This document shows, piece by piece, positions 424 to 33,408 of a DNA stretch of 64,000 bases. A program made the position numbers and the translations under genes. Within the stretch, counting starts at the first letter, position 1, and each line of letters opens with the position of its first letter. The stretch lies in contig JAJZFQ010000192.1 in assembly GCA_021805275.1 (NCBI GenBank), forward strand, positions 62,001-126,000. The letters run 5' to 3'. The notes below the pieces were generated by a model. That model did not search any database, was not told the origin of the DNA, and worked only from the letters and a program-made list of their open reading frames with translations. This DNA is from Pseudomonadota bacterium (GTDB taxonomy: Bacteria > Pseudomonadota > Gammaproteobacteria > Steroidobacterales > Steroidobacteraceae).

Positions 424-1926
424 ATGGTGGAGATGACCCGCCGCATCGAGCACATCGTGATCGTCGGCGGCGGCGCGGCGGGCTGGATGACCGCGGCGGC
501 GCTCAGCCGCTCGATCGAACGCGATTGCAGCATCACTCTGGTCGAATCCGAGGAAATCGGCATCGTCGGCGTCGGCGAAGCCACGATCCCACCGATCAAG
601 TTGTTCAACGACATGCTCGGGATCGAGGAGAACGAATTCCTGCGTCGCACCCGCGGCACGTTCAAACTCGGCATCCAGTTCGTCGATTGGGCCCAACTCG
701 GCCAGCGCTATTTCCATCCATTCGGCAGCTACGGCCGCCCCTTCGATCTGGTCCAGTTCCACCATCACTGGCAGCGAGCCCACGCGGAGGGTAGGGCGGG
801 CAGTCTCGAGGAGTACTGCATGGCCTGGGCAGCGGCGCGGGCGGGGCGCTTCGAGCTGCCGTCGGCCGATCCCCGCAATGTGCGCTCGACCTACCTGTAC
901 GCCTACCATTTCGACGCCAGCCTCTATGCGCGCTTCCTGCGCGAGTACGCCGAGGCGCGTGGGGTCCGGCGCATCGAGGGCAAGGTGGTGGCGGTCGAGC
1001 AGCACCCGGACAGTGGCTTCGTCGAGGCCGTGCGGCTCGAGGGCGGGCTGCGCCTCGCTGGGGAGCTGTTCATCGACTGCTCGGGGATGCGGGCGCTGCT
1101 GATCGAGGGAGCGCTGCACAGTGGCTTCGAGGACTGGTCGCATTGGCTGCCGTGCAACCGGGCCCTCGCGGTGCCGAGCGAGACCGCGGAGCTCGCCCCC
1201 TACACGCGCTCCACTGCGCACAAGGCCGGCTGGCAGTGGCGCATTCCACTGCAGCACCGTACCGGCAACGGGCACGTGTATGCCTCGAGCTTCATGAACG
1301 ACGATGCCGCCGCGGCGATCCTGCTCGGCCATCTCGAGGGCAAGGCCCTCGGTGAGCCGCGCCTGATCCGCTTCGCCGCGGGCCGCCGCAAGGTGCACTG
1401 GAACAAGAATGTCATTGCCATCGGCCTCTCGAGCGGCTTCCTCGAACCGCTGGAGTCCACCGCGCTGCATCTGATCCAAGCGGGCATCTCCAAGCTGATC
1501 GCCTACTTTCCAGATCGCGACTTCGATCCGCTGGCAATCCGTGAATTCAACAGGGTGGCGGGGGCCGAGGTCGAGCGCATCCGTGACTTCATCATCCTGC
1601 ACTATCATCTCAATACGCGCACCGACGGGGAACTGTGGCGCTACTGCGCGAACATGCCCATCCCCGAGACGCTGCAATACAAGATCGATCACTTCCGCCG
1701 TGCCGGGCGCATTCTGCCAGGCGAGATGGACATCTTCGGCCCGAGCAGCTGGCTTGCGGTGCACATCGGACAGATGAACTGGCCGCAGCGGAACGATCCA
1801 CTACTTGACTGCCGCCGTTTCGCCGGCACTGAGTACCTTGAGCAGCTGCGCCGTACGCTCGAGTCAGCCGCGCAAAGCATGCCGACCCACCATGACTACA
1901 TCGCGCGGCATTGCCGCGGCGTCTGA
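424..1926 (+). CDS. Flavin-dependent tryptophan halogenase family protein
   Basis: A 500-residue protein of the PrnA/RebH family, which use FADH2, oxygen and halide to make a lysine-bound halogenating species. It has the N-terminal FAD-binding GGGAAG motif (residues 15-20), the conserved lysine in GTFKLG (K81), the WxWxIP signature (WQWRIP, 270-275) and the glutamate of LEPLES (E344). Length matches the family. A GGAG lies 8 nt before the ATG. It sits between a TonB receptor and sugar hydrolase genes, a context in which such proteins recur in Proteobacteria without a proven halogenation substrate. The family assignment is firm; true tryptophan halogenation is doubtful here. Confidence 0.88.
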   Translation: MVEMTRRIEHIVIVGGGAAGWMTAAALSRSIERDCSITLVESEEIGIVGVGEATIPPIKLFNDMLGIEENEFLRRTRGTFKLGIQFVDWAQLGQRYFHPFGSYGRPFDLVQFHHHWQRAHAEGRAGSLEEYCMAWAAARAGRFELPSADPRNVRSTYLYAYHFDASLYARFLREYAEARGVRRIEGKVVAVEQHPDSGFVEAVRLEGGLRLAGELFIDCSGMRALLIEGALHSGFEDWSHWLPCNRALAVPSETAELAPYTRSTAHKAGWQWRIPLQHRTGNGHVYASSFMNDDAAAAILLGHLEGKALGEPRLIRFAAGRRKVHWNKNVIAIGLSSGFLEPLESTALHLIQAGISKLIAYFPDRDFDPLAIREFNRVAGAEVERIRDFIILHYHLNTRTDGELWRYCANMPIPETLQYKIDHFRRAGRILPGEMDIFGPSSWLAVHIGQMNWPQRNDPLLDCRRFAGTEYLEQLRRTLESAAQSMPTHHDYIARHCRGV

Positions 1927-1935
1927 GGAGAGGTT

Positions 1936-3156
1936 ATGTCCCGGTTCCTGCTCATCATGACCGTGCTGCTCACAGTGTCGCCGTTGCGGGCGCCGCTGGC
2001 ACGCGCGAGCGAGGCGATGCACTTCCATGTCCGGCCTGCCAATGGGCTTGCGTTGACGCCACCGATGGGGTGGAACAGCTGGAATCACTTCGGCTGCAAT
2101 GTGAGCGCGGCGTTAATTGAGCGCGAGGCGCGCGCAATGGTCGCTTCGGGCATGAAGGCCGCCGGTTACCGTTACGTGATCATCGACGATTGCTGGCAGG
2201 CCGGCCGCGATGCCAACGGCAACATCTATCCCGATCCGAAGCGCTTTCCGCAGGGCATCAAGCCCGTCGTCGACTCCGTGCACGCGCTCGGCCTTAAGTT
2301 CGGCATCTACTCCGACGCCGGCGGGCGAACCTGTCAGGGCCGGCCCGGCAGCCGCGGCCACGAGTACCAGGACGCGCTGCAATATGCCCGCTGGGGCGTC
2401 GATTACCTCAAGTACGACTGGTGCAACACCGGGGGACTGCGCCCGCGGGAGGCCTACGCGACCATGAGCGATGCGCTGCGCGCGAGCGGTCGACCGATCG
2501 TGTTCAGCCTCTGCGACTGGGGCGTACGCAAACCGTGGCGCTGGGGCGCGGCGGTGGGCGGGAATCTCTGGCGCACGACGCATGACATCTGGGATGCGTG
2601 GAGCGGGCAGCATGGCTTCTCGATCGGGGTGATGAATATCCTGGATTTGCAGGTCGGCCTCGCCGGCTACGCCGGGCCCGGTCACTGGAACGACCCAGAC
2701 ATGCTGGAGATCGGCAACGGTGGCATGACCGACGCGCAGTACCGCGCGCAGTTCAGCTTGTGGGCGATCCTCGCCGCGCCACTGATCGCGGGCAACGACA
2801 TCGCGCAGATGGATGCGGCGACCCGCACGATTCTTACCAACCGCGAGGTTATCGCGGTGGACCAAGACCGGCTTGGCATTGAGGGGCGCAGGGTCTACCG
2901 CCAGGGCGATGCCGAAATATGGACCCGCCCGCTCGTGGGCGGTCGCGAGGCAATCGTCCTGCTCAACCGCGGTATCCGGCCGCTGCGCATCCGGCTCACA
3001 TGGTCTGAGCTCGGTCTGCCGGCTTACCTGCCCCTGCGCCTGCGCGACTTGTGGCGACACAAGGATCTGCCGGTCGCCACCGGCTCGGTGACCTTCCCGG
3101 TGGCGCCCACTTCGGTGATCATGCTGCGCGAGAGGCCGCTGCGTCCGCGACCCTGA
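1936..3156 (+). CDS. Glycoside hydrolase family 27 alpha-galactosidase, secreted
   Basis: A 406-residue retaining alpha-galactosidase that should remove terminal alpha-1,6-galactose from raffinose-type sugars or galactomannan. Residues 1-29 form a Sec signal peptide ending near ARASEA. The mature enzyme starts with the GH27 hallmark TPPMGWNSWN, then DDCWQ; the nucleophile is D161 in KYDWCN and the acid/base aspartate lies in WNDPDM (about 251-256). The C-terminal 80 residues form the usual beta-sandwich. A strong Shine-Dalgarno (GAGGAGAGG) precedes the ATG, 9 bp after the halogenase stop, so the genes are co-transcribed. It probably acts in the periplasm after uptake through the upstream receptor. 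Confidence 0.93.
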   Translation: MSRFLLIMTVLLTVSPLRAPLARASEAMHFHVRPANGLALTPPMGWNSWNHFGCNVSAALIEREARAMVASGMKAAGYRYVIIDDCWQAGRDANGNIYPDPKRFPQGIKPVVDSVHALGLKFGIYSDAGGRTCQGRPGSRGHEYQDALQYARWGVDYLKYDWCNTGGLRPREAYATMSDALRASGRPIVFSLCDWGVRKPWRWGAAVGGNLWRTTHDIWDAWSGQHGFSIGVMNILDLQVGLAGYAGPGHWNDPDMLEIGNGGMTDAQYRAQFSLWAILAAPLIAGNDIAQMDAATRTILTNREVIAVDQDRLGIEGRRVYRQGDAEIWTRPLVGGREAIVLLNRGIRPLRIRLTWSELGLPAYLPLRLRDLWRHKDLPVATGSVTFPVAPTSVIMLRERPLRPRP

Positions 3157-3223
3157 GGTTGTGCGGATCGCGCCAGCGGCGCTGATCGAGATCGCTTCTC
3201 AGCGTTGGGTGCAGGGGGTCATC

Positions 3224-4543
3224 ATGAATTCCGTTCTCGCCAAGGGCATCTTCGTCGGCGGGCTGACGGGGCTGCTGTTCGGCTTCGACACGGCGGTGAT
3301 CGCCGGGGCGACGCATGGCTTGTCGGTGACCTTCGGGCTCACTCCCGCTGCGCTCGGGTGGACCGTCTCGAGCGCCTTGTGGGGCACGCTCGCCGGTGCG
3401 CTGCTCGCGGGCTACCCGGGAGACCGCTACGGGGCGCGCAACTGTCTGCGGGTGATCGCCGGGATGTATCTGCTCTCGGCGCTCGGCAGCTTTGCGGCGC
3501 CCACGCTCGGGCTGTTCGTCGCCGCGCGCGTACTCGGCGGGCTCGCGATCGGCGCCTCGACGGTGCTCGCGCCGACTTACCTGGCCGAGATCGCCCCGGC
3601 GGATCGCCGCGGCGCGATGGTCGGGACCTTTCAACTTAACATCGTGTTCGGCATTCTGGTGGCCTACCTCAGTAACTATCTGATCGGCTTGTCCGCGCTG
3701 GGCGCCGAGGGGTGGCGCTGGAAATTCCTCGCCGCCGTCGTCCCGGCGGCGCTGCTCGGCGCGCAGCTCTTTACGATACCCAACAGTCCACGCTGGCTCG
3801 CAGTGCGTGGGCGTCGCGCCGAGGCGACCGGTGTGCTTGCGCGCATCGGGGTAAGTGATGTCGCGGCGGAGCTCGCCAGCTACGGCCGCGCGCAGGGTAC
3901 GGTGGGCGGTGCGCTGGGGCGGCTGTCCTGGCGCCGTCATGCCCGACCGATGCTGCTCGCGATCGGCGTCGCCGCGTTCAACCAGCTCTCGGGCATCAAC
4001 GCCATTCTCTACTATCTCGACGATATCTTTCGCGCGGCCGGCTTCGGCCGGGTCTCGGCCGCCGGCCAGGCGGTGATCATCGGGGCCACCAACCTGCTCT
4101 TCACACTGCTCGCGCTTGCGGTGATCGACCGGTTCGGGCGCCGCTCGCTGCTGCGGGTCGGCTCGCTCGGACTGATCGTCTCGCTCGCCGCCACTGCATA
4201 CATCGAGCTCTCGGGGACGCACCAGGGATGGCTGCTGTGGATGCTGGTGCTGTTCATCGCCTCGTTTGCCTTCTCACAAGGGGCGGTCATCTGGGTCTAT
4301 ATCTCGGAGATATTTCCCACCGAGGTCCGTGCGCGCGGCCAGGGACTCGGTGCTTCCACGCACTGGTTCATGGATGCGCTCATCGCAACGCTCTTCCCGG
4401 TGGCCGCGGCCTATTCCAAGGGCCTGCCGTTCGTGTTCTTCGCCGCGGCCATGGTGGCCCAGCTCGTCGTGGTGACCTTGTTTTTTCCAGAGACGCGGCG
4501 CGTGCGGCTCGAGGACATGGAGAGCGCCCTTGGGCGTCGGTGA
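3224..4543 (+). CDS. Sugar porter family MFS transporter
   Basis: About 439 residues with 12 predicted membrane helices. It shows sugar-porter signatures: GDRYGARN after helix 2, RVLGGLAIG, PNSPRWL before the central loop, DRFGRRSL in the second half and PETRR at the C-terminal end. These proton-coupled permeases bring mono- or disaccharides across the inner membrane. The frame is open from a GTG at 3161, but the ATG at 3224 is preceded by AGGGGGT at a good distance and starts just before helix 1, so it is preferred. It lies between GH27 and GH32 genes, suggesting import of sucrose, fructose or galactose released in the periplasm. Confidence 0.88.
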   Translation: MNSVLAKGIFVGGLTGLLFGFDTAVIAGATHGLSVTFGLTPAALGWTVSSALWGTLAGALLAGYPGDRYGARNCLRVIAGMYLLSALGSFAAPTLGLFVAARVLGGLAIGASTVLAPTYLAEIAPADRRGAMVGTFQLNIVFGILVAYLSNYLIGLSALGAEGWRWKFLAAVVPAALLGAQLFTIPNSPRWLAVRGRRAEATGVLARIGVSDVAAELASYGRAQGTVGGALGRLSWRRHARPMLLAIGVAAFNQLSGINAILYYLDDIFRAAGFGRVSAAGQAVIIGATNLLFTLLALAVIDRFGRRSLLRVGSLGLIVSLAATAYIELSGTHQGWLLWMLVLFIASFAFSQGAVIWVYISEIFPTEVRARGQGLGASTHWFMDALIATLFPVAAAYSKGLPFVFFAAAMVAQLVVVTLFFPETRRVRLEDMESALGRR

Positions 4544-6128
4544 GCACGGCAGTGCCCGCCGGGCTGCCGTGGCGGGGATGCTCGGCGTCGTGGCGCTCGC
4601 GGCGCGAGTTCCTGCGCGGCCTGCCGCGCCGGGCGAGCGTACCGCGGCAGCCCGCGCTACCTACGCGCAGATCTACCGTCCGCAGGTGCATTTCACGCCG
4701 GCCCGGCACTGGATGAACGACCCGAACGGGCTGGTCTATTTCGGCGGCTGGTACCACCTGTTCTTCCAATATAACCCCTACGGTACGCGCTGGGGGAACA
4801 TGAGTTGGGGACACGCCGTCAGCCGGGACCTGCTGCACTGGCGGCAGCTGCCGGTGGCGATACCGCAGGGACGGCGGCACATGATCTTCTCCGGCAGCGC
4901 GGTGGTCGATTGGCACGACACCAGCGGCTTCGGCGTGGCCGGCCGGCCGCCGCTCGTGGCCATCTATACGGCCGCGCCACGCGCCATGCCGGGGCCACAG
5001 ACGCAGAACCTCGCCTACAGCACCGATGGCGGGTGGCATTGGCGCAAGTACGCGGGCAATCCAGTGCTCAACATCGGGTTACGAGATTTCCGCGACCCGA
5101 AGGTGTTCCGCTACGCCGCAGGGCACGAGTGGGTCATGGTGGTCTCGCGCGCCGCGCAGCGGCGCGTCTCCTTCTACGTGTCGCGCGACCTGAGGACCTG
5201 GAGGCACACGGGTGACTTCGGTCCGGCGGGTGACACGCGCGGGGTGTGGGAGTGTCCGGACCTGTTCGAACTGCCGGTCGAGAACCGTCCGGGCGAGAGG
5301 CGCTGGGTGCTCAAAGTGGACGTCCAGCAGCATCGGCCGGGGACCGGTGGGGGCGGGCAGGTGTTCATCGGCCGGTTCAACGGCAAGACCTTCAGCGCCA
5401 TCAGTCCGCACGCCCAACCGGTCGACCTTGGCGAGGATTACTACGCCAGCGCCTCCTGGTCCAACCTGCCGGCCGGTGGCCCCGGCGTCATCACGCTCGG
5501 CTGGATGGACAACTGGCTGTACGCGCAGAGCGCCCCGACCGCGCCCTGGCGCGGTGCGATGGCATTCCCGCGTGCACTCTCGCTGCATCGGCAGGGCGCG
5601 ACGTACCGTTTGATCCAGCGGCCGATTGCCGCGCTCGCGACGCTGCGGGGTGCGTCCCGGCAGTTGGGCCCGTTCGTGGCGCCGACTGCCCGCCGGGTGC
5701 TCGCGGTGCCCGCCCAGGGCGCCGCGCACGAGATCCAGGCGCGGATCGACGTCGGACGGCGCGGTCGGTTCGTACTCACCATCGGCTCGAGCGACGGGCG
5801 CCAGGTCCGGTTGGGCTACGACGCACAGGCCGGGCAGTTCACGCTGCGCCGTCTCGGGCACTACCACTTTTCCCCGAAGTTTGATTCCGACAATGCTGCG
5901 CCGCTCGCGGCCCGTCACGGCGCAATTGCCCTGAACCTGATTATCGACCGCTCCTCCGTGGAGGCGTTCGTGAATCACGGGGCGCTCACGGCGGCGGAGA
6001 CCTTCTACGCGCGTGGCGGTGCCTATACGGTCACTGTGCGCACTACGCGCGCGCGCGTCGAGCGGATGCAGATCTGGAGGTTGCGCTCGATCTGGCGCGG
6101 CGGGGCACCCCGAGGCGCGCCGCCGTGA
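4530..6128 (+). CDS. Glycoside hydrolase family 32 beta-fructosidase, secreted
   Basis: A 532-residue invertase/levanase-type enzyme. The nucleophile D64 lies in WMNDPNG, the transition-state stabiliser in FRDPK (R188-D189-P190) and the acid/base E241 in ECPDLF; a five-bladed propeller is followed by a beta-sandwich ending near residue 520. The chosen TTG start overlaps the permease stop by 14 bp and has GGAGAG upstream. It keeps an arginine-containing signal peptide (SARRAAVAGML...), while later starts at 4569 or 4578 would shorten it. It should hydrolyse sucrose, raffinose or fructans. With GH27 it completes stepwise breakdown of raffinose-family sugars; the combined pathway is inferred. 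Confidence 0.92.
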   Translation: MGVGEHGSARRAAVAGMLGVVALAARVPARPAAPGERTAAARATYAQIYRPQVHFTPARHWMNDPNGLVYFGGWYHLFFQYNPYGTRWGNMSWGHAVSRDLLHWRQLPVAIPQGRRHMIFSGSAVVDWHDTSGFGVAGRPPLVAIYTAAPRAMPGPQTQNLAYSTDGGWHWRKYAGNPVLNIGLRDFRDPKVFRYAAGHEWVMVVSRAAQRRVSFYVSRDLRTWRHTGDFGPAGDTRGVWECPDLFELPVENRPGERRWVLKVDVQQHRPGTGGGGQVFIGRFNGKTFSAISPHAQPVDLGEDYYASASWSNLPAGGPGVITLGWMDNWLYAQSAPTAPWRGAMAFPRALSLHRQGATYRLIQRPIAALATLRGASRQLGPFVAPTARRVLAVPAQGAAHEIQARIDVGRRGRFVLTIGSSDGRQVRLGYDAQAGQFTLRRLGHYHFSPKFDSDNAAPLAARHGAIALNLIIDRSSVEAFVNHGALTAAETFYARGGAYTVTVRTTRARVERMQIWRLRSIWRGGAPRGAPP

Positions 6129-6138
6129 CCGGCGACGC

Positions 6139-7398
6139 TCAGCCCGAGCGGGCCGGCTTCGGGCGCACCGAACGCGGCATGTCGAGCGTCTGGGGACGCA
6201 GGGCTTCCTGATACGCTGCGGCAAGGGCTTCCACGAAGGTCGGTGGGAGATGATCCGCCGGCCGGTCGAGCAGGTTGCGGTAGAAGGTGGTGAACAGCCC
6301 CCAGTACTGGGCCGGGTCGGGCTTGCCGCGCCGGCCGGGCTCGAACCTGGCCTCCAGCTCGACCGGGTCGAGGCGTCCCAGGAATTCGATAAAAGCGGCC
6401 CGCAGGGCCTGCGCCAGGGCCTGCTCGTGGGCCTTGATCTCGTCGTGACGCTCGCGCAGCCAGCGCACCGCATCCAGCGTGTGCGCCTCGTGCTGATTGA
6501 ACAGCTCGAGCAGCAGTTCCTCGACGGTCAGCTGTCCGAGCGTCGGGACGTCGGGCTCGACCGGCCGGGGTTTGATCCGGAAGCGATCGCGGATTTGCCC
6601 GCGCGAGCGCTCGAGGTCCTTCAGGCCGACCAGTGTCTCGCGCAGCAGGCGGCCCGTCAGGTGCATCAGTCCCTGTGCCGGGATGGGGAGCCGCTCGGGG
6701 TTGAGCCCGGCGCCACGGCAGAAGGCCTGCCAGTCGGTGCCGTCCTGGGCGGCGGCAGCCTCCTCGCGGCTTGCCGCCCGCGCCAAGTGCGCCAGGCGCC
6801 GAGCTACTGTCTCGTCTGCGGTCTCGCTCGACGGACGCGGCGGCGGGGCGGGGAGCGGGATGGCTGCAGGTGCGCCCCCGGGGCGCCCCGGCGGCGGGGC
6901 ACGACCCTGGCCGAAAGCGTTGCCCGGCTGCAGCTCGCCTGTGTCCGAGGGGCCGGCGTTCAGCAGGTCGTCCAGGTCGAGCACCGCCCCGAGATCCGTC
7001 TGCGCCGCACCCAGCGGGTGAATCGCGACGATGTGCGACGGCAGCAGCGCCGCGGAGTCGCTGGTCTGCAGCTCCTCCAGGGACACCCCGATCTGGTATT
7101 CCCCGAGGCGCAGCACGTCCCCGTCGCGCAGCCGGTACGCCTCCCCGCCCTGCTTGGCGAGTGGCTCGGGGGCATCGTTGACGTATACGCCGTTGGTGCT
7201 GATGTCCTCGAGGTAATAGTGCCCGTCACGGCGGTAGACCCGGGCGTGGTGGGCAGAGAGGTAGCGGCGCGCATCGGGCAGCACGAAGTCATTGTCGGCC
7301 GACCGGCCGATGGTTCCGCCGTGTGCGCCGAATTCCACGCTGTCCCGTCCCGCCAGCTGGCGGCGGTGGACGCTGATGACGCTCAGACGAAGCGTCAT
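6139..7398 (-). CDS. TagH-like FHA-domain protein (type VI secretion accessory family), orphan
   Basis: A 419-residue protein. Residues 1-105 form a forkhead-associated domain that would bind phosphothreonine: the pieces GRSADNDF, SAHHARV and STNGVYVND are recognisable. A proline/serine-rich linker (about 150-210) follows. The C-terminal half resembles the TagH/VasC domain (CRGAGL, then LMHLTGRLLRETLVGLKDLE), which in type VI systems links phosphorylation to assembly. No other type VI gene lies nearby; the neighbours are a fructosidase (convergent, 10 bp away) and a DUF1820 gene (divergent). It may serve a system elsewhere in the genome or work alone in phospho-signalling. Confidence 0.75.
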   Translation of the reverse strand: MTLRLSVISVHRRQLAGRDSVEFGAHGGTIGRSADNDFVLPDARRYLSAHHARVYRRDGHYYLEDISTNGVYVNDAPEPLAKQGGEAYRLRDGDVLRLGEYQIGVSLEELQTSDSAALLPSHIVAIHPLGAAQTDLGAVLDLDDLLNAGPSDTGELQPGNAFGQGRAPPPGRPGGAPAAIPLPAPPPRPSSETADETVARRLAHLARAASREEAAAAQDGTDWQAFCRGAGLNPERLPIPAQGLMHLTGRLLRETLVGLKDLERSRGQIRDRFRIKPRPVEPDVPTLGQLTVEELLLELFNQHEAHTLDAVRWLRERHDEIKAHEQALAQALRAAFIEFLGRLDPVELEARFEPGRRGKPDPAQYWGLFTTFYRNLLDRPADHLPPTFVEALAAAYQEALRPQTLDMPRSVRPKPARSG

Positions 7399-10800: not shown

Positions 10801-11774
10801 GCGTGCTCGATGAGCCCTGGCGCGAGCTGCGTGCGGCCTGGTCAGAGACATCGTGGCAGATGCGCCGCCTGCGCGACGACCCGCAGTGCGCCGACGAGGA
10901 GTACGCCGCGCAGCGCGATGAGCGGGACCCGGGTCTTGCCGTCGCCCTCGGCTTCGATCCCGAAGAGGACATCGCCGCGCCGTATATCGCAGCCGGCGCT
11001 CGCCCGAGCATCGCGGTGCTGCGCGAGCAGGGCGTGAACAGCCACAACGAGACCGCGTTCATTTTCGAGCGCGCCGGGTTCGCGCCGTACGATGTGCACA
11101 TGAGCGATCTGGCCACCGGGCGCCAGGCGCTCGACAAGTTCGCCGGACTGGTGGCCTGCGGCGGGTTCTCCTACGGCGATGTGCTCGGCGCTGGCGAGGG
11201 TTGGGCGAAGTCGATTCTGTTCAACGACGCGCTGCGCGAGCAGTTCCAGGTGTTCTTTGAGCGCTCCGACACGTTCGCGCTCGGCGTGTGCAACGGCTGC
11301 CAGATGTTCGCCGCGCTGAAGAGCATCATTCCGGGCACCGAGCACTGGCCGCGCTTCGTGCGTAACCGCAGCGAGCAGTACGAGTCGCGCCTGACCCTGG
11401 TCGAGGTTCTCGACAGCCCCTCGGTGCTGCTCGCCGGCATGGCCGGCTCGGTGCTGCCGATTGCGGTGGCGCATGGCGAGGGGCGCGTCGAGTTCGCCGA
11501 TGCGCGCCAGGAGGCGGGCTGCCAGGGCGGCGGCCTCGTGGCGGTGCGCTACGTCGATCATCACCGCAGCGTCGCGCGCTCGTATCCGTACAACCCCAAT
11601 GGCTCGCCGCATGGGATTGCAGCTCTCAGCAGTGCTGACGGTCGGGTGACCATCACCATGCCGCATCCGGAGCGCTCGGTGCGCTACACGCAGAACTCCT
11701 GGCGGCCGGAGGATGCGGGGGAGTACAGCGGCTGGATGCGGCTGTTCAGGAATGCGCGCAAGTTCGTCGGCTGA
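7878..11774 (+). CDS. purL: Phosphoribosylformylglycinamidine synthase (large type)
   Basis: A 1298-residue single-chain enzyme for the fourth step of de novo purine synthesis, converting FGAR, glutamine and ATP to FGAM. The N-terminal PurS-like part ([14 protein letters not shown]) is followed by duplicated AIRS-like ATP-binding halves ([19 protein letters not shown] and related motifs from about residue 295). The C-terminal class I glutaminase begins near residue 1040, with the catalytic cysteine in GVCNGCQMF and the histidine in MPHPERS. Length is typical of proteobacteria. An alternative ATG at 7890 would match the family N-terminus equally well. Its 3' end overlaps the convergent gene on the other strand by 29 bp. 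Confidence 0.97.
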
Positions 11775-12594
11775 GACCGACGGGGGCGGACGCAGCGTTG
11801 TTCTGTCGCGCGGCTATCTGCTCGCGCAGCAGCCGGAACATGTCCAGGTACCGCGGAGTGCCGCTTTGCACGTAGGCGATCTTTAACGCATCGAGCATCA
11901 GCATCTCCGGATTGAGACTCGCTGACTGCAGCAGCGCTGCCGGGGTGAATGCCTTGACACGCCAGCGGGACTGCGACCACAGTAGCAGCGAGGCCAGCCG
12001 CTCCATGACGAACACCTTCGCAGGTGCGGACTTCACGCCGTAGCGCACCGCGACGTTCAGCCCCTGCCCGAGCGGTGAGAGTCCCTCCTCGGCGATCGCG
12101 AACAGCCGCTCGCCCTGGCGCAGCCACTCCCGCCAGAACGCCGGCTTCGCCACGAAATAATTGCAGAAGATTGTATTGAGCGAGCTCATCACCGCCTGGT
12201 CGGTCCGGAACTTCGGCGCGACCAGCACGGCGCTCTGCGTGAAGGTCTCACCGTTGCCGTGATGCATGATGGCGTGCTCGATGATGTTCAGTGCGAAGGC
12301 CATGTGGTCAAAGTAAGGTGAGAACGATATGACGTCCGCGTCTTCCCCATGCTGCTCGATCAGTCTCACGACGGTGCTGGCGTCGAGGCCGGTCTTGGCA
12401 CGGAACTTCGATGAGAAAATGCCGTAGTAGGTGTCCGGCTCTAGTGTGCGGTTCAGCAGCGTGTGTCGAAATGTCCAGTACTCGCGCCAGTCGGGCCGGT
12501 CGTTGGCGAGGTTGTCGAGCGGCAGGAAGCCCGGATCGAGATCCGCGCGCGTCTTGTCGGAATAATAGATCTGATAGATCTCACTCTTGGCCAT
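11746..12594 (-). CDS. Conserved protein of unknown function in putative flagellin-modification operon
   Basis: A 282-residue soluble protein beginning [13 protein letters not shown], with [18 protein letters not shown] near the N-terminus and a His-rich patch ([11 protein letters not shown]) around 115-125. No signal peptide or membrane helix is seen. The ATG at 12594 overlaps the sulfotransferase stop by 14 bp, so the two are coupled. The N-terminus recalls proteins found beside sugar- and polysaccharide-modifying enzymes, where a glycosyltransferase-like fold is possible, but I do not recognise a catalytic motif. The last 29 bp overlap the end of purL on the opposite strand. Function unknown; a role in decorating the flagellar glycan is inferred from position only. 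Confidence 0.75.
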
Positions 12595-13759
12595 TCGCGG
12601 CGCCTCCTGAGTTGCTCTGGGCTGGCTGGAGGCGTTCCTGCATGAGCGCATCGAGCAGCCGCAGTGGGTCCTCGCACGGCAGACGCCCCTCGCTGGCGCC
12701 GTGGCGCATCCAGTGCTCATAAGGGTCGGCACCGGCAGCGATTACGTCGGGGTTTTTGCGCCGGTACCAGTCGCTGCGCAGACAGTCCCCGAGCATCGCC
12801 GAGCCAGGTGTGGCGACTGCGCTGATCAGCCGTGAAATGTTTGCCGTGCGCACGGTGGTCGACGCCGCGACGCCGCCGAAGTGAGCGCGGAAGTCCTCCA
12901 GCGCGGTGCGCACCGTACGCTCGCACCCGCGATAGCCTGCAAAGATGCGCTCCAGCATGGCTTCGTCGAGTGACTGATCGCGTGCCGCCGCCGCGAGCGC
13001 CGCATACACAGATGCGAGCCAGTCCGTACCGAATGGATCGGCGAGTGCGCCGTCATGGCGCTGACGGTGCAGATCACGCCGGAGAAACGCCTCGATGGCT
13101 GTCTCGTCGCGATGCGTCAGATCGACCTGCAGGGCGGAGCCGATGCGGGCGATCTGCCCACGCCAGTCGGCGAGAAAAGTCGGGTATTCGACGAACACGC
13201 GCGGCATTGAGCGTGAACAGCGTTCGGCCAGCAGGCTGTACTTCAGCCACAGTGCGGCCGCGAGCTGCGGGGAGGTCGCATCGCGGCCAGCGAGCGAGGC
13301 GATGACTTCCTGCGGGTGGCGGATCGCGATCACCGCGGCCGGCGCCAAGCCGGCGCGGCGGGCCGCTTCGAACCACAGGTCCGCCAGCGCCGTGATCCGC
13401 GGCTCCTTGATGAGAACGAGCGGTGCGGTGCCGAGCGTAGCGAGGAAGGTACCGATCTCGGCGAGGCTCGTCGCACGTGCCTGCGGTCCGATGGTTGTCG
13501 GATCCTGCAGGCGCAGCGTCGGGTCGTACCAGCTGCTGTCGTGATCTGCCAGGATGCGCTCATTGATCGCCAGCGCCACACTCGGTTCCCAATGACCGAG
13601 CGGATTGCCCTGATTGGCGCCGAGCAGATCCGTCGGGAGGGTGCCGCCGCAGAGCGAGAGCACGCGCGTCAATGCGGAGGTTCCCGAGCGGCCCACGCCG
13701 AGCACGAACAGGGCGATGCGGCGACCCGCCGCGCCGCGGACGAGCTGCGGGTCACTCAT
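12581..13759 (-). CDS. PAPS-dependent sulfotransferase family protein with C-terminal NPDV-type module
   Basis: A 392-residue protein. The N-terminus carries the sulfotransferase 5'-phosphosulfate loop (GVGRSGTSAL, 21-30). A segment around 150-165 (IKEPRI, then AVIAIRHPQEVIASL) matches the 3'-phosphate-binding region. These enzymes move sulfate from PAPS to a hydroxyl or amine. The last 60 residues hold a DWYRRKNPDV...DPYEHWMRHGASEGR module, a motif often fused to bacterial glycosyltransferases. The ATG overlaps the GT41 stop (ATGA) and the 3' end overlaps the next gene, so the three form one coupled operon. A longer upstream frame exists but is a shadow of the GT41 gene. Substrate unknown; a flagellin glycan is plausible. 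Confidence 0.82.
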   Translation of the reverse strand: MSDPQLVRGAAGRRIALFVLGVGRSGTSALTRVLSLCGGTLPTDLLGANQGNPLGHWEPSVALAINERILADHDSSWYDPTLRLQDPTTIGPQARATSLAEIGTFLATLGTAPLVLIKEPRITALADLWFEAARRAGLAPAAVIAIRHPQEVIASLAGRDATSPQLAAALWLKYSLLAERCSRSMPRVFVEYPTFLADWRGQIARIGSALQVDLTHRDETAIEAFLRRDLHRQRHDGALADPFGTDWLASVYAALAAAARDQSLDEAMLERIFAGYRGCERTVRTALEDFRAHFGGVAASTTVRTANISRLISAVATPGSAMLGDCLRSDWYRRKNPDVIAAGADPYEHWMRHGASEGRLPCEDPLRLLDALMQERLQPAQSNSGGAANGQE

Positions 13760-16344
13760 GGATCCGTCTCTGAGATTACGGAGTCGTGTGGCGCTGCGAG
13801 CGGACCGTCCGCCGAAAGGTGCGCGGGCGGCAGGCCCGCAAGATGCCGCTCGTGCATCTGCCGGTAGAGGGACTCGAGGCTGCGGGTGAAGTTCGCTGTG
13901 TTGAACAGGCTGGAGGCGTTGCGGCTGTCCGCCAGGCGCTGTCTGAGGGCCGCGAGCTGCGGTGCATCGGTGGCGAGCTCGATGGCCCGCCGCTCGTAGT
14001 CCGCCGGGCTGTCGGTAATGAGCGCCTCGAGTCCGGCGGAGGTAAGAATGCTGGCCGCCATCCGCGCCGCGAAGGCCTCGCCGCGGCAGGTGAGGACCGG
14101 CAGGTTTGCCCACAGAGCATCGCTCGCCGTCGTGCCGGCGTTGTACGGCAGCGTGTCAAGAAACAGATCCGCCGCCTGGTAGCGCGCCAGATATTCCCCG
14201 CCGGGCAGTGGTCCGCCGAAAACGAGCCGGTGCGGATCGATGCCGCGTTTCAGCGCTTGCAGGCGCAGATTGCGTGCTGTCGCGGCCGTTCCGGCGAGCA
14301 GGAACAGTACGCTGCCCGGCACGGCCACCAGGATCCGCATCCAGCTGTCAAACGTCTGCGGCACGATCTTGTAGCTGGCGTTAAAGCAACAGAATACGAA
14401 CCCGTGCTCCGGCAGACCGAATGCGGCGCGGGTGTTCGGTCCCGAGGGGAGCGGCCGCTTCGAATCGTTGACCTGATAGCTCGGCAGGTAGGCGATCTTC
14501 TCGGTGTAGTGCGCCCGAGCGTGCTCCGGAACGAGGACGGGGTCGGCAATCAGGTAGTCCATGAACGGCGCGCCAAGGGTGCCGAGATACCCCAGGTAGC
14601 TCACCTGCACGGGTGCCGGTCGCAGCGCCTTGATGCGCGGACGGGCCTCGAGCGTGTAGCCGCCGAGGTCGACTGCGATGTCGATTCCCAGTTCGCGCGC
14701 CTGCTGCGAGATCTGGTGGTCGGACTGATTCCCCACCGGCAGGAAGCGGTCGAATGCGCCCTCGAGGCGCATGCGCAGTGTGTCGCGGACGTCCGGACCG
14801 AGGGAGAACGCAGTGAGCTCGAATTGAGAGCGGTCATGCATCTCGAACAGTTCGGCGCTGAGGGCCGCAACCGCGTGATTGCGGAAATCGGCGGAAAAGT
14901 ATGCGACGCGGATCTTATCGTTGCGCCTGCGGGGAGGCGGGGGAGGCAGCGGACGGCGCGTGGTGCACCGCTCGCGTGCCCAGATCTGTGCCGCCTGACG
15001 TTGCAGCGGCAGTGAATCGAGCAGCGCCAGCAGCGTGAACGGCGGCACGACCGCAGCGCCGCGCTGTACGCCGGCGGTGATTTCGGCAATGTCGGCCTCA
15101 AAGCCGTGCCAATCGCAGATCTGCATGCGCGCATGGCGCTGCTCGCCGCGTACAAAGTTCGAATCCGGGTCCAGCAGCAACGCCTGCTCGTAGCTCGCGA
15201 TCGCCTCCTCGGGAGATTTGGTCAGCAAAAGCGCCGCGCCGTGATTTCGAAAGGTGTCCGCGTCGCGCCGGCCGAACGTCAGGGCCTGCTCAAAGCTCGC
15301 GAGCGCCTCCGGAACGCGCTGCAGCGCTTGCAGAGTCACGCCCCGATTGAAGTGAGCATCCGCAAACCCCGATTCCGCCTCCAGCGCGCGCGCATAGCTG
15401 GCCAGCGCCTCCTCGTGCTGCTGGAGGGCGGCCAGCGTCACCCCGAGATTGCTGTGCGCGGCTGGACTGTCCGGGTCGAGGGCGAGGGCGCGCCTGAATT
15501 CCGCGATCGCCTCCTCGTGGCGCTCGAGCTTGTGCAGTACCAGACCGTGATTATTGCGGGCCTCCAGGTAATCGGCGCGCAGCGCGAGCGCCTGCTCGAT
15601 GTGCCGCAATGCCTCCTCGTGGCGTCCGAGCCGGTAGAGTGCGGCACCAAGGTTGTTGAGAGTTTCGGCGCGGCCGGGACGCAGGTGCAGCGCCCGCTCA
15701 TAAGCGCCTACCGCTTCCTCATAGCGACCGAGATCGTGCAGGGTCGCTCCGCGGTTGTTGTGCGCATCCGCATGATCCGGCTTGGCCTGCAGCGCACGCT
15801 CGTAGCTCTCCAGGGCCGGCTCCAGCCGGCCCAGCTGCCGCAATACGGTGCCGCGGTTGTTCCACGCCTGGGCGTGGCCCGGCTGGCGGGAAAGGGTCTG
15901 CTCATAGCACCAGAATGCCTCAAGGTACTCGCCCATGAAATGCCAGGTAACACCGCGGTTGTAGTGCGCGTCGGCGAAATCCGGCCGCAGAGCGAGTGCG
16001 CGCTCGTAGCAACCGAGGGCTTCCCGGTGACGCCCGAGGTCGCGCAGCGTGCTGCCGTAATGGTTCAGCGCGTGCACGTCATGCGGCGCGGCTGCCACCG
16101 CCCGAGCAAACTGCTCGGCCGCTTCGGCCGTGCGGCCCGCCTGTGCCAGGATGATCCCGAGCAGGCTGAGTGCCCCGGAATGGGACGGATGGCGCTGCAG
16201 GAGCGAGCGGCACAATGTATGCGCCGCTTCCGGCTGGCCAGCCTGCACCAGGCTCAGCGCGCGGCGGAGCGTCTCTGTGGGCGCCGTCGCGGCAGGAGAT
16301 GGTCGAGGAATGCGTGCGGTGGCAGTTCGGCGCCCTTTGCTCAT
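13756..16344 (-). CDS. TPR-repeat O-GlcNAc-transferase-like protein (GT41, SPINDLY type)
   Basis: An 862-residue cytoplasmic protein. Residues about 23-400 contain roughly eleven 34-residue TPRs (repeated pattern ALRxDxADAHxNxGxxLxxLGRxEEA). Residues about 450-850 form the GT41 catalytic region: RVAYFSADFRNHAV, DYLIADPVLVP, FCCFNASYKIVP and LDTLPYNAGTTASDALW are the expected nucleotide-sugar-binding motifs. Bacterial relatives O-glycosylate proteins, including flagellins. It lies 79 bp downstream of fliS in the same direction, with no terminator seen in the gap, and overlaps the sulfotransferase gene by 4 bp. Flagellin is therefore the likely acceptor, though only by context. Confidence 0.88.
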   Translation of the reverse strand: MSKGRRTATARIPRPSPAATAPTETLRRALSLVQAGQPEAAHTLCRSLLQRHPSHSGALSLLGIILAQAGRTAEAAEQFARAVAAAPHDVHALNHYGSTLRDLGRHREALGCYERALALRPDFADAHYNRGVTWHFMGEYLEAFWCYEQTLSRQPGHAQAWNNRGTVLRQLGRLEPALESYERALQAKPDHADAHNNRGATLHDLGRYEEAVGAYERALHLRPGRAETLNNLGAALYRLGRHEEALRHIEQALALRADYLEARNNHGLVLHKLERHEEAIAEFRRALALDPDSPAAHSNLGVTLAALQQHEEALASYARALEAESGFADAHFNRGVTLQALQRVPEALASFEQALTFGRRDADTFRNHGAALLLTKSPEEAIASYEQALLLDPDSNFVRGEQRHARMQICDWHGFEADIAEITAGVQRGAAVVPPFTLLALLDSLPLQRQAAQIWARERCTTRRPLPPPPPRRRNDKIRVAYFSADFRNHAVAALSAELFEMHDRSQFELTAFSLGPDVRDTLRMRLEGAFDRFLPVGNQSDHQISQQARELGIDIAVDLGGYTLEARPRIKALRPAPVQVSYLGYLGTLGAPFMDYLIADPVLVPEHARAHYTEKIAYLPSYQVNDSKRPLPSGPNTRAAFGLPEHGFVFCCFNASYKIVPQTFDSWMRILVAVPGSVLFLLAGTAATARNLRLQALKRGIDPHRLVFGGPLPGGEYLARYQAADLFLDTLPYNAGTTASDALWANLPVLTCRGEAFAARMAASILTSAGLEALITDSPADYERRAIELATDAPQLAALRQRLADSRNASSLFNTANFTRSLESLYRQMHERHLAGLPPAHLSADGPLAAPHDSVISETDP

Positions 16345-16423
16345 GGGGCTACCTTAGTGGGCGCCCGGCGACACCTGCCGTGAATTATGTCGCATTTCCC
16401 TCCCTCGACGGGCCGCCGCTCCG

Positions 16424-16855
16424 TCAGCGTGCGCCACTCGCCGCCGGCACCGCCTCGGCACGCACTTCCGGTCCGATCGCGGCCCAGGCGACCCGGATCT
16501 CCCCAAGAAGTCCCAGCACTTCGGCAACCGCCCCGGCGTCATTGGTCGCGTTCGCCTGCACCAAGCGACGGGTCATGTATTCGTACAGGTCACTGAGATT
16601 CTGCGCAAGGGAGCCGCCGTGGTTCATGTCCAGGCTGCCCCGCAGTTCCGCGAGCAGCACGACAGAACTGTGCAGCAGGCCGGCCTTGCGGGTCACCTCG
16701 CCATTCTCGATGCAGGAACGCGCAGCGGTCAGACGTCCGAGTACGGCATCGAACAGGATCAGCACCAGAGAATGCGGATCCGCGTCTGCGACCGCGCCAT
16801 GGGCACTGACGCTGCGATACGCCGCGAGCTTCGAATGCTGTGAATACGGGTTCAC
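16424..16855 (-). CDS. fliS: Flagellin export chaperone
   Basis: A 143-residue, mostly helical protein that binds the C-terminus of flagellin to prevent cytosolic polymerisation. It matches FliS in length and pattern: the N-terminal YRSVSAHGAVADADPHSLVLILFDA, then RLTAARSCIENGE and LYEYMTRRLVQAN. GGGAG precedes the ATG at a good distance. It follows fliD by 63 bp and has its own FliA-type promoter in that gap, so it may be expressed with flagellin and lead the downstream glycosyltransferase and sulfotransferase genes. Confidence 0.92.
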   Translation of the reverse strand: MNPYSQHSKLAAYRSVSAHGAVADADPHSLVLILFDAVLGRLTAARSCIENGEVTRKAGLLHSSVVLLAELRGSLDMNHGGSLAQNLSDLYEYMTRRLVQANATNDAGAVAEVLGLLGEIRVAWAAIGPEVRAEAVPAASGAR

Positions 16856-16884
16856 CTGTCATACTCCCAATGTCCGTGCCCACT

Positions 16885-16911
16885 ATAGCGGCCCGTCGGG
16901 TGCGAACTTGA
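16885..16911 (-). promoter_or_regulatory. Candidate FliA (sigma28) promoter for fliS and the modification operon
   Basis: On the minus strand, -35 TCAAGTTC is followed after exactly 11 nt by GCCGCTAT (6 of 8 to GCCGATAA). The -35 is identical to that before fliC. Predicted start is near 16878, giving a leader of about 23 nt that contains GGGAG before the fliS ATG. The same -10 region can also be read as a sigma70-like TATAGT. Confidence 0.6.
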
Positions 16912-16918
16912 ACCCGTA

Positions 16919-18337
16919 TCAACCCGAGGAATTCGACCCCGGGGCGCCCGGCAGCGTGGCGAATGCCTGGGTGAGGTAAGAGGAGGTGCTCTGCAACGAG
17001 GACAGCAGGGTATTCAGCGCCGAATACTGCTGCGTGAGGCTCGCGGAGAGTGCGCTCATCTGCTGCGAGAGTTGGGTGCTCTGCTGCGACAGATTGTTTT
17101 CCTGCTGGACCAGACTTTGGCTGAGCGAAGCGATCGGTCCAGTCGAGGCAAGTTGCGCGGTCATCTGCGTATTGAGCGTCGAGGCAATTCCGCCGCTGCC
17201 GCTGAACAGCGCGCTCACGGCGCTGAAATTAGCGCTAAGCGCTGCTGACAGCGTCGAGGTATTCACGCTCAACGAGCCGTCGCTGTTGGCAGTGATGCCG
17301 ACGCTGGCGAGAGAATTGTAGGTCGCAGAGCCGGTGTTGACAAAGCTATCGAGTGCGGAGCTGATCTGGCTCTGCACGCCGCTCAGAGCCGCGTTGCCCA
17401 TCAGAGGGCCCGCCGTATTCGTGGTCGCGTCATAGCCTCCCAGCTGACTGAAGGTCTGCTGCAGGCTGTTATAAGCAGATACGAACGCCTGAATGTTGCT
17501 TGAGACTGCGCTGTTGTTGTCGGCGACAGAAAGTGTCGCCGGCGAGGTGGTCGTGGCGAGCAGATTCAGAGTCAGGCCGCTCAAGGCCGTCGTCACCGTG
17601 TTGCTGCTGCTTGAATAGGTGACGCCGGCGATGGAGATGTTCGCGTCCTGAGCGGCGGTCGTCTGGGTGTAATTAGCGGTGTTGCCAGTGCCGTAGGTGA
17701 GGGCAGACAGGCTGGTGCCGCCGCTGGTCTGGGACACCTGCATCGTGTTCGATACGCCGGTCAGGCTGGAGGTGAGCGCCAGGTGTGCGCCGTCCGTGCC
17801 GGTAATGATGCTGGCCTGGATGCCGGGATTACCACTTGCCGAGTTGATGGCGGCGGCAATGCCGGAAAGCGTGTTGTCGCTGCTGGTGATCGTCACGCTG
17901 AAACTGGCGCCACCGAGGCTCAGCTGCAGCGTCCCTGTGCCGACGGTGCTCGAGCCTCCACCGGCAAATGCAGTCGAAACCAACTGTTGCGCTGCCGCCA
18001 ACTGGTTGACGGCGATACTGTACGAGCCGAGCGTCGCGCTGGAGGCGGCGCTCGCGGTGAACGCGGTCGTATTGCTGCTGGTGGCGCTCAGCGTGCCGAA
18101 CGCACTCGGGGTGTCAATCGCGGTAAGTGCCGATTGAAACTGCGACAGCGCGCCCTTCAGCGTGCCGACCGCGGAAATTTCCGTGCTGACCGACTGCGTG
18201 TGCTGCGTGATGATCGATTGCTGCGGCGCCTCGGTCGCCTGAACCAGCTGCGAGACCAGGCTCGAGACATTGATGACCGAGCCGCCGGCGGCGCCGGCGC
18301 TTGTGTTGCTGGCAACGGAGACAACTGATCCGGACAT
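16919..18337 (-). CDS. fliD: Flagellar filament cap protein
   Basis: A 472-residue HAP2 protein that caps the filament and guides flagellin assembly. The N-terminal coil (INVSSLVSQLVQATEAPQQSI) and C-terminal coil (LSQSLVQQENNLSQQSTQLSQ) have heptad character; the middle is Ser/Thr-rich. A further in-frame start lies at 18427, but the ATG at 18337 has GGAG 10 nt upstream and gives the normal N-terminus (MSGSVVSVASN). It lies between fliC and fliS. The intrinsic terminator after fliC stands just upstream, and no separate promoter is evident, so expression probably relies on partial read-through. Confidence 0.92.
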   Translation of the reverse strand: MSGSVVSVASNTSAGAAGGSVINVSSLVSQLVQATEAPQQSIITQHTQSVSTEISAVGTLKGALSQFQSALTAIDTPSAFGTLSATSSNTTAFTASAASSATLGSYSIAVNQLAAAQQLVSTAFAGGGSSTVGTGTLQLSLGGASFSVTITSSDNTLSGIAAAINSASGNPGIQASIITGTDGAHLALTSSLTGVSNTMQVSQTSGGTSLSALTYGTGNTANYTQTTAAQDANISIAGVTYSSSSNTVTTALSGLTLNLLATTTSPATLSVADNNSAVSSNIQAFVSAYNSLQQTFSQLGGYDATTNTAGPLMGNAALSGVQSQISSALDSFVNTGSATYNSLASVGITANSDGSLSVNTSTLSAALSANFSAVSALFSGSGGIASTLNTQMTAQLASTGPIASLSQSLVQQENNLSQQSTQLSQQMSALSASLTQQYSALNTLLSSLQSTSSYLTQAFATLPGAPGSNSSG

Positions 18338-18465: not shown

Positions 18466-19818
18466 TTACGGCAGCTTCTGCAGCAGCGTGAGGACGTTCT
18501 GCGGGATGGTATTCGCCTGGGCGACCATCGCCGTGCTCGCCTGCTGCAGAATCTGGGCCTTGGAGAGGTCCGAGGTCGCCTGCGCGTAGTTCGCATCGAC
18601 GATCGAGCTCTTCGCGGCGCTCAGGTTCGTCGCGTCGGTCTGCAGACCGGTCACGGCAGCCTGGAAGCGGTTCTGATAGGCACCGAGATCGGCGCTGCTA
18701 GTGGCAATCTGCTGCAGCGCGTTATCGATCGAAATCAGTGCCAGGTTCGAGTTGTCGACCGAATTGACGTTCAGGCCATTCAGATGCAGGACCGACGAGG
18801 AGGTGGTCGTCGCACCGGCGGCTGTGTAGCTGCCGACCGTGTACGAACTGGTCACCCCGAGGTCGGTGGTGATCGCCGTGTCCTGGGCGGCGGTCAGTGT
18901 CAGCGCGTTGCCGGCGGCGTCAGTTCCCGCGGTGGTCGTGACGGTCACGACGTGGCCATAGCCGGCGGTGGCCGTGCCGCTGATCTGAATGCCGGTGCCC
19001 GCGCTATTGACCGTGGCGACGAGTCCGCCGACCGAGCTCAGCGCCTGGTTGATGCCCGCCGCGACGCTCTTGAGGTCGGTAGCGGAATTGCCGGTGAGGC
19101 TGATCGCATTCGTGTTGTAGCTGGTACCGTCGACGCTGACCGACAAGGTCACCGATGAGCCGTTCACCGCGGTGCCGAGATCACTGGAAGAGGCGAGGTT
19201 TGCCGCACTGTAGGTCCCGCCGACGCCAGCAGTGCCGGTGATCGTGCCGCCGGTGACGGTCTTGATGCTCTGGCCGGCGGCCGTGGTCATGCCGGTGTAG
19301 TAGTTGCCGATCGCCGTTGAGCCCGCATTGGAGATTGAGCCGACCGTGATGGTCTGACCGGCATTGGCGCCTACCTGGAAGGTCGCGCCCTGGAACGTGC
19401 CATCGAGCAGGTTCACGCCGTTGAACTGCGTCTGCGAGGCGACGCTGTTGATGTCGTTCATCAGCTGCTGGAACTGCGCATTCAGGTCGGCGCGGTCGCT
19501 GGCGCTGTTGGTCGCGTTGAGCGATTCCACCGCAAGACTGCGCATCGACTGCAGGTCGTTGGCGATGCCGCTCATTGCACCGGAGGCGGTCTGAGACAGT
19601 GACACGCCGTCGTTGGCGTTCTGGATCGCCTGATTCAGACCGTTGACCTGCGAGGTCATGCCCATCGAGATCGCATAGCCAGCGGCGTCGTTGGCTGCGG
19701 TGTTGATCCGCAGGCCCGAGGACAGCTGCTGCAGCGCGGTCGTGAGCTGATTGCCGGACGTCGTCAGACTGTTCTGCGCAATGAGTGAGTTGATGTTCGT
19801 ATTAAGGACGAGTGACAT
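18466..19818 (-). CDS. fliC: Flagellin
   Basis: A 450-residue filament subunit. Both conserved D0/D1 ends are present: the N-terminus MSLVLNTNINSLIAQNSL with QLSSGLRINTAANDAAG, and the C-terminus from NALQQIATSSADLGAYQNRFQ to NVLTLLQKLP. The central region (about 170-360) is rich in Ser, Thr, Gly and Ala and is the likely glycosylated surface. The final residues LLQKLP diverge from the usual LLR ending. AGGAG precedes the ATG. A FliA promoter lies upstream and a strong terminator downstream, as expected for a highly expressed monocistronic gene. Its partners FliS and FliD are encoded next door, followed by a GT41 gene. Confidence 0.97.
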   Translation of the reverse strand: MSLVLNTNINSLIAQNSLTTSGNQLTTALQQLSSGLRINTAANDAAGYAISMGMTSQVNGLNQAIQNANDGVSLSQTASGAMSGIANDLQSMRSLAVESLNATNSASDRADLNAQFQQLMNDINSVASQTQFNGVNLLDGTFQGATFQVGANAGQTITVGSISNAGSTAIGNYYTGMTTAAGQSIKTVTGGTITGTAGVGGTYSAANLASSSDLGTAVNGSSVTLSVSVDGTSYNTNAISLTGNSATDLKSVAAGINQALSSVGGLVATVNSAGTGIQISGTATAGYGHVVTVTTTAGTDAAGNALTLTAAQDTAITTDLGVTSSYTVGSYTAAGATTTSSSVLHLNGLNVNSVDNSNLALISIDNALQQIATSSADLGAYQNRFQAAVTGLQTDATNLSAAKSSIVDANYAQATSDLSKAQILQQASTAMVAQANTIPQNVLTLLQKLP

Positions 19819-32550: not shown

Positions 32551-33408
32551 ATGCGCTTTGCGATCACGCTGACCGATCGCTACCTGCCCGTGTTCGAGGC
32601 CTTTCTCGCGGCCGGCTGGCAGCCGGTGAAAGTGTTTACCTCACCGGTTGATGACCGCATTTTCCACAACAAGCTCTCCCTGGAACGGGCGCGGCAACTT
32701 GATGTCCCGGTGCAGATCTCGCGCATGCTCGATACCGACCTCGCCGATCTGCACTCGCGCGACTGCGACCTGCTGGTAGTCGCCAGCTATCAGTGGCGGA
32801 TCGGGGACTGGCAGCCTCATCTGCGCTACGCTGTGAATTTCCATCCCTCACCGCTGCCAATCGGACGTGGCGCCTATCCGCTGGTGCGGTCGATTCTTGA
32901 CGGCCACACCGAGTGGGGCATCACCTGCCACAAGGTCACTGCCCGTTTCGATGCCGGCGAGATCCTTGCGCAGGAGACCTTCCCGATGACCCCCGACGAG
33001 TGCCACGAGAGTCTGGACCTGCAGACTCAGCTGGCCTCCGGCACACTTGCTGCGCGGGTCGCTGGAGACTTCGAGGCGCTGTGGCGCGGCGCCAGAGCGC
33101 AGGGCGAAGGCACGTACTGGAAATTGTTTACTGACGCCGATCGGACCATCGATTTCCATCAGCCAATCGATCGCATCATGCGTACCGTGCGCGCCTTTGG
33201 AGAGTATGAATGCCTCGCAAAGGTGGCTGATGCGCAGGTCTACGTGCGACGTGCGGTCGCCTGGCGCGCGCAGCATGCCCATACACCGGGTACGGTGGCG
33301 CACAACTCAGCGATGCGACTGGTGGTGGCGGCGAGTGACGGCTATGTCGGTCTGCTCGAATGGAGCTTGATCGGACCCGATGCGCCGGCGCAGCGGATCG
33401 GTCGTTAA
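32551..33408 (+). CDS. Formyltransferase-family protein (sugar N-formyltransferase or Fmt-like)
   Basis: A 285-residue protein with the 10-formyl-tetrahydrofolate transferase fold. Catalytic residues correspond to N96 and H98 in NFHPSPLP and D134 in RFDAGEI; IGRGAYP follows. The C-terminal 90 residues resemble the Fmt C-terminal domain but are short (Met-tRNA formyltransferase is usually about 310 residues). Relatives formylate amino sugars in surface glycans. It lies just after flgN and its terminator in a flagellar region, so a role in a flagellar or lipopolysaccharide sugar is possible. The true substrate cannot be told from sequence. Confidence 0.78.
   Translation: MRFAITLTDRYLPVFEAFLAAGWQPVKVFTSPVDDRIFHNKLSLERARQLDVPVQISRMLDTDLADLHSRDCDLLVVASYQWRIGDWQPHLRYAVNFHPSPLPIGRGAYPLVRSILDGHTEWGITCHKVTARFDAGEILAQETFPMTPDECHESLDLQTQLASGTLAARVAGDFEALWRGARAQGEGTYWKLFTDADRTIDFHQPIDRIMRTVRAFGEYECLAKVADAQVYVRRAVAWRAQHAHTPGTVAHNSAMRLVVAASDGYVGLLEWSLIGPDAPAQRIGR

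Follow-up and report, generated by a model that had tools for sequence, protein, structure and literature searches.

Behind fliS, the flagellin chaperone gene, lie three overlapping genes that probably specify a cytoplasmic flagellin glycosylation cassette, expressed at the late, filament stage. They were found in a 64,000-nucleotide stretch of contig JAJZFQ010000192.1 (positions 62,001 to 126,000) from a bacterium of the family Steroidobacteraceae (assembly GCA_021805275.1); we refer to this whole stretch as the window. The genes encode a tetratricopeptide repeat (TPR) glycosyltransferase of family GT41, an enzyme with the predicted fold of sulfotransferases that use 3'-phosphoadenosine 5'-phosphosulfate (PAPS), named ST here, and a conserved, uncharacterized protein, named U. 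GT41 would attach the first sugar, U would extend the glycan and ST would, optionally, sulfate it.

The order of genes on the minus strand is flgK-like, flgL-like, fliC, fliD, fliS, GT41, ST and U (Table 1). FliD and flagellin were found upstream by Pfam. The identities of flgK, flgL and purL were assigned by eye, flgK and flgL without a profile scan. The end of GT41 overlaps the start of ST (ATG at 13759) by 4 bp, the end of ST overlaps the start of U (ATG at 12594) by 14 bp, and 79 bp separate GT41 from the end of fliS at 16424. Mechanically called open reading frames (ORFs) begin further upstream (GTG at 14113 for ST and GTG at 12732 for U); the internal ATGs were preferred because they fit with relatives. 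U and purL, on the opposite strand, meet tail to tail and their stop ends overlap by 29 bp. In a near search of plasmids, the single record returned was a 556-base piece (74%) that lies within purL. A scan of positions 11600-17000 for terminators found 0 sites (mean of 2.5 in shuffles), and hence none in the gap between fliS and GT41. Thus, the overlapping three-gene set and the terminator-free gap, both claimed in a preliminary description made from the sequence alone, are confirmed. The same description placed a FliA-type promoter ahead of fliS. What stands is a FliA-like site that starts 56 nt ahead of the gene and matches 12 of 16 positions of the FliA consensus, a match that is not transcription evidence. 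The fraction of window positions scoring at least 12 at the spacing of this site is 4.7e-5. By the same consensus, 13/16 sites precede fliC and the presumed flgK; these too are consensus matches only. The top FliA-like site of the window (15/16, position 31399, plus strand) lies at the end of flgA, ahead of flgN.

We compared seven sites, window included, at which GT41 follows fliS. In the window, GT41, ST and U are followed by purL. In locus L001, GT41 and U are separated by an NPDV remnant with a broken frame, within 0.45 kb, and the contig ends after U. At L002, which comes from a metagenome bin, the order is GT41, U, a WbsX-type protein, ST and purL; at L003 it is GT41, U, a WbsX-type protein, a methyltransferase with NPDV, one opposite-strand gene and purL. 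The contig of L062 ends after GT41 and the start of U. At L142, GT41 is followed by a GT2-type enzyme bearing the C-terminal tail of U, a methyltransferase and purL. L143 has GT41, a tail-bearing GT2-type enzyme, a decayed-looking ST fragment, a methyltransferase and purL. Hence, purL comes next in all five sites with a long enough contig (window, L002, L003, L142 and L143). The set recurs beside fliS in part: GT41 and a second glycosyltransferase are present in 7/7 sites, but relatives have ST in another position, in broken form or exchanged for a different gene, with an ST remnant in 2/7 and a methyltransferase in 3/7 (the contigs of L001 and L062 end at U). Modules are exchanged between enzymes, NPDV being carried by ST or a methyltransferase and the U tail by U or a GT2-type enzyme. 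Across the seven sites, glycosyltransferase genes lie beside flagellin genes and vary between relatives, the pattern of a flagellin island.

The linkage of GT41 and U extends beyond these sites. One scan of genome contigs, with the window proteins as queries, gave 69 U loci. These include near copies (e.g. L059-L061) and same-genome pairs (L036/L038 and L044/L064); many end at contig edges, so presence is undercounted. A GT41 catalytic domain was found at 40/69 loci, flagellar genes at 25/69 and both at 24/69. GT41 is followed by U on the same strand at 18 loci, with a spacing of at most 71 bp in 12 of the 18, and six ORFs encode single-protein fusions of GT41 and U (L008, L013, L015, L039, L045 and L056). 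Four PF13844 segments, equivalent to some two GT41 genes, were counted in the 7.9 Mb of P. ferrariae (G008); by this rough yardstick, the chance of a GT41 in a 20-kb stretch would be well below one in a hundred. We take GT41 and U to belong together.

The U family reaches beyond flagella, since none of 19 stretches fetched for a divergent branch of U (L123-L141, 36-42% identical, from the same family of genomes) has flagellar genes. There were 30 U places in this family, of which 20 were fetched, 6 were already in the set and 4 were left out; L122 repeats L007. In a tree of 84 rows (5/89 were excluded as too short), the window U groups with L001-L004 with support of 98/97. Flagellar loci are spread over several distinct parts of the tree; the label needs 9 changes, at least 8 of them forced, against a shuffled mean of 21.6; gains and losses are not distinguishable.

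These data bear on whether the cassette instead acts on a surface polysaccharide or another protein, its position behind fliS being a chance insertion. We consider this very improbable. Flagellar genes are missing from the divergent U places, there is no flagellar match at 18 of the 20 GT41 places chosen and fetched from the family, and in Herbaspirillum (L047) U adjoins dTDP-rhamnose-type genes. Against chance insertion stand the small number of label changes on the U tree, the FliA-like site ahead of fliS and the structurally known GT41 enzymes, which, by their molecule names, act on proteins. A further point comes from counts of PF13844 segments, which range from 0 to 50 per genome in 17 genomes. 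Two such segments, corresponding to one GT41 gene, were counted in each of four bin assemblies (G001, G002, G003 and G005), and in all four the sole GT41 of the assembly sits behind fliS.

The window GT41 matches Pfam Glyco_transf_41 (PF13844) with an E-value of 5.2e-79 and has many N-terminal TPRs. It also matches the solved structures of XcOGT and human OGT. The SYKI sequence of GT41 aligns with SYKL of XcOGT; the lysine of the SYK motif, an OGT catalytic-site residue, is therefore present.

Most probably, U is the second glycosyltransferase of the set and is related to GT111. The assignment draws on a structural model, which shares the fold of the WbbM N-terminal domain (GT111/DUF4422). Plain Foldseek ranked the matches of U weakly (best E 0.014) and WbbM was separated only by a second look at them with VIA-align. 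The window U has no match to Pfam DUF4422 (PF14393), and 3/67 related rows match it (best E 0.0027). To obtain a DUF4422 profile, 200 and 274 genomes were searched, with matches in 5 and 3 of them; the resulting alignment consists of the 6 above-cut-off rows only. Sequence searches of solved structures with the U profile gave nothing credible. The family is large, with 1067 proteins matched, mostly unnamed; in an order-wide sample of 196 genomes, U was found in 3. The tail of U is also present on the GT2-type proteins of L142 and L143 (E 3e-10 and 1.2e-9 in the ORF set compared; alignment).

The ST model has the PAPS-sulfotransferase fold, with the 5' loop and the Arg...Ser 3' motif. In an alignment of 52 rows, R147 and S155 are invariant and R24, S25 and G26 nearly so. 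Neither ST alone nor an ST profile found a credible sequence match among solved structures. The NPDV profile matches ST, the methyltransferase of L003 and the frame-broken remnant of L001. Among 217 genomes of the family, ST-like matches (1e-9) occur in five. Those of G002, G003 (module only) and G699 (fragment) lie at the fliS site, and those of G736 and G816 are without NPDV. The order-wide sample has ST-like matches (E 1e-8) in 7 genomes, one of them strong. Separately, a TylF-type methyltransferase-domain protein of Paraburkholderia xenovorans (L074:772-1887, minus strand) contains an NPDV-like stretch (E 7e-5).

The part played by ST can be read differently. GT41 and U may modify flagellin while ST is a passenger that is being lost, or acts on another substrate. 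In line with this, L001 and L143 retain no more than a remnant of ST, and L003 and L142 lack it. In addition, homologues of ST that lack NPDV are found in Mycobacterium, in carriers that are not known to have flagella. We nonetheless judge this reading unlikely: in the window, ST has an uninterrupted frame and overlaps the gene on either side, the 52 aligned rows show conservation of its motif residues, and NPDV is found on 95/121 ST proteins (the best 120 of 1340 plus that of the window). Moreover, ten pairings of source and longest contig, compared by eye, recur between the best 120 of 1067 U matches and the best 120 of 1340 ST matches, which suggests repeated linkage but is not proof. One coincidence of U and ST, at 1,363 bases, was rejected as linkage because it is too short for both genes. 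It is quite unlikely that ST, with its PAPS-sulfotransferase fold, sulfates flagellin itself, at tyrosine, and not the glycan.

Several observations weigh against a flagellin glycosylation and sulfation cassette. The preliminary description held that homologues found regularly away from flagellar genes would count against it. In part this is what was seen, at all 19 divergent U places (GT41 is present at 2/19), at the 28/69 U loci with neither flagellar genes nor GT41, many of them contig-cut, and for ST in Mycobacterium. In Paraburkholderia xenovorans (G010), the sole GT41 is ~42 kb away from U. ST scores 20 bits against Pfam Sulfotransfer_3, below the cut-off of 27; a match spanning ST and NPDV was found only in G002 among the 217 family genomes, and ST is intact in only 2/7 fliS sites. 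The donor loop of GT41 reads NAGTT where XcOGT has NAHTT. A His-Thr-Thr donor loop is typical of enzymes that use UDP-N-acetylglucosamine (UDP-GlcNAc). With Gly in place of His before Thr-Thr, the donor may therefore be other than UDP-GlcNAc. Finally, scans of parts of the window detected no sugar-nucleotide genes.

Genes at 33-38 kb were rejected as a sugar-nucleotide cluster, being two HDOD proteins, CheB, CheD and CheR. Within the flagellar cluster, a gene downstream of flgN encodes a formyltransferase-fold protein of 285 aa (32551-33408, plus strand). The NCBIfam families that it matches best are of the fmt and ArnA types, and every score falls far short of the cut-off. This protein could formylate a flagellin sugar.

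For the flagellin cassette that we favour, the steps would be as follows. By comparison with FlmG and OGT, the TPR domain of GT41 would bind flagellin and its GT-B domain would place the first sugar on Ser/Thr. U, a predicted GT-A enzyme, would add a second sugar, a role suggested by the fusions to GT41. ST would then transfer sulfate from PAPS to the glycan, its presumed acceptor, and the modified flagellin would be exported. The enzymes encoded behind GT41 appear to be exchangeable, and NPDV and the U tail may hold them at a common substrate or at GT41. The flagellum-linked GT41 and the sulfotransferase-fold enzyme of the preliminary description thus stand; the action of ST on flagellin or its glycan is presumptive. 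More tentatively, the sites may represent a modular line in which TPR-GT41 is fixed, slot two holds U, as a new glycosyltransferase family related to GT111, or a tail-bearing GT2-type enzyme, the last slot holds an NPDV-bearing sulfotransferase or methyltransferase, and the modules are docking adapters. Some bacteria might, on this possible scheme, swim with sulfated flagellin glycans.

Table 1. Features of the cassette and its surroundings (window positions).
Feature	Position	Strand	Basis
GT41: TPR-GT41 protein glycosyltransferase, FlmG/OGT-like, 862 aa	13756..16344	-	Pfam PF13844 and TPRs; XcOGT/human OGT matches
ST: predicted PAPS-sulfotransferase-fold enzyme, 392 aa, catalytic domain ~residues 13-285	12581..13759	-	
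NPDV module, C-terminus of ST, ~residues 303-376	12632..12853	-	profile
U: putative GT-A-type glycosyltransferase related to GT111/DUF4422, 282 aa	11746..12594	-	
C-terminal helical tail of U, ~residues 227-264	11803..11916	-	profile match and alignment
fliS, flagellin chaperone, next gene upstream	16424..16855	-	Pfam FliS 2.9e-29; NCBIfam fliS above cut-off
FliA-like site ahead of fliS, 12/16	16885..16911	-	FliA consensus match
fliC flagellin, presumed acceptor, Ser/Thr-rich centre	18466..19818	-	Pfam; composition

Elsewhere in the window, genes for a tryptophan-halogenase-like protein, an alpha-galactosidase, a sugar transporter and a GH32 hydrolase lie in a row (424-6128, plus strand), apparently a sugar-use cluster. 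The gene at 6139-7398 (minus strand) encodes an FHA protein carrying the type VI secretion FHA C-terminal domain.

If correct, the proposed pathway would, as a route to a sulfated swimming filament, have no bacterial precedent in the literature searched, and would provide a function for a family of more than 1000 mostly unnamed proteins. The swapped enzymes that share modules would also be a natural set for learning how decorating enzymes reach flagellin. Among the papers listed in that literature, none deals with sulfation of bacterial flagellin in its title or abstract, most subscription papers being outside its coverage. Flagellin islands with GT41 and exchangeable decorators, and sulfated archaellin glycans, are already known.

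FlmG of Caulobacter has N-terminal TPRs and a C-terminal GT-B domain, the order seen in the window GT41, and acts on flagellin (PMC7591256). It uses pseudaminic acid (PMC7591256), whereas the window operon adds a second glycosyltransferase and a sulfotransferase. In our searches, Caulobacter vibrioides was one of two control genomes with PF13844. The flagellin islands of Enterobacteriaceae are variable cassettes by fliC that encode GT41 enzymes together with interchangeable decorating ones, among them methyltransferases (PMC4875605), as at the fliS sites described here. Those islands occupy the fliC-fliA interval and the window cassette the fliS-purL interval; the parts of that paper examined contain no U-type enzyme (PMC4875605). 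No word starting with 'sulf' occurs in the main text of that paper or of a paper on Geobacillus (PMC4875605; PMC5109656). WbbM, which builds lipopolysaccharide O antigen with UDP-galactofuranose (UDP-Galf), has an N-terminal domain (GT111/DUF4422; PMC12269835) that U resembles in fold and by profile similarity. U differs in being single-domain or fused to GT41, in having its own C-terminal tail and in falling below the DUF4422 cut-off. In Halobacterium, sulfotransferases decorate the N-linked glycan of archaellin (PMC11980604). Sulfation of a swimming-filament glycan, proposed here, is thus known there, although that system is archaeal and N-linked, and involves another filament and pathway (PMC11980604).
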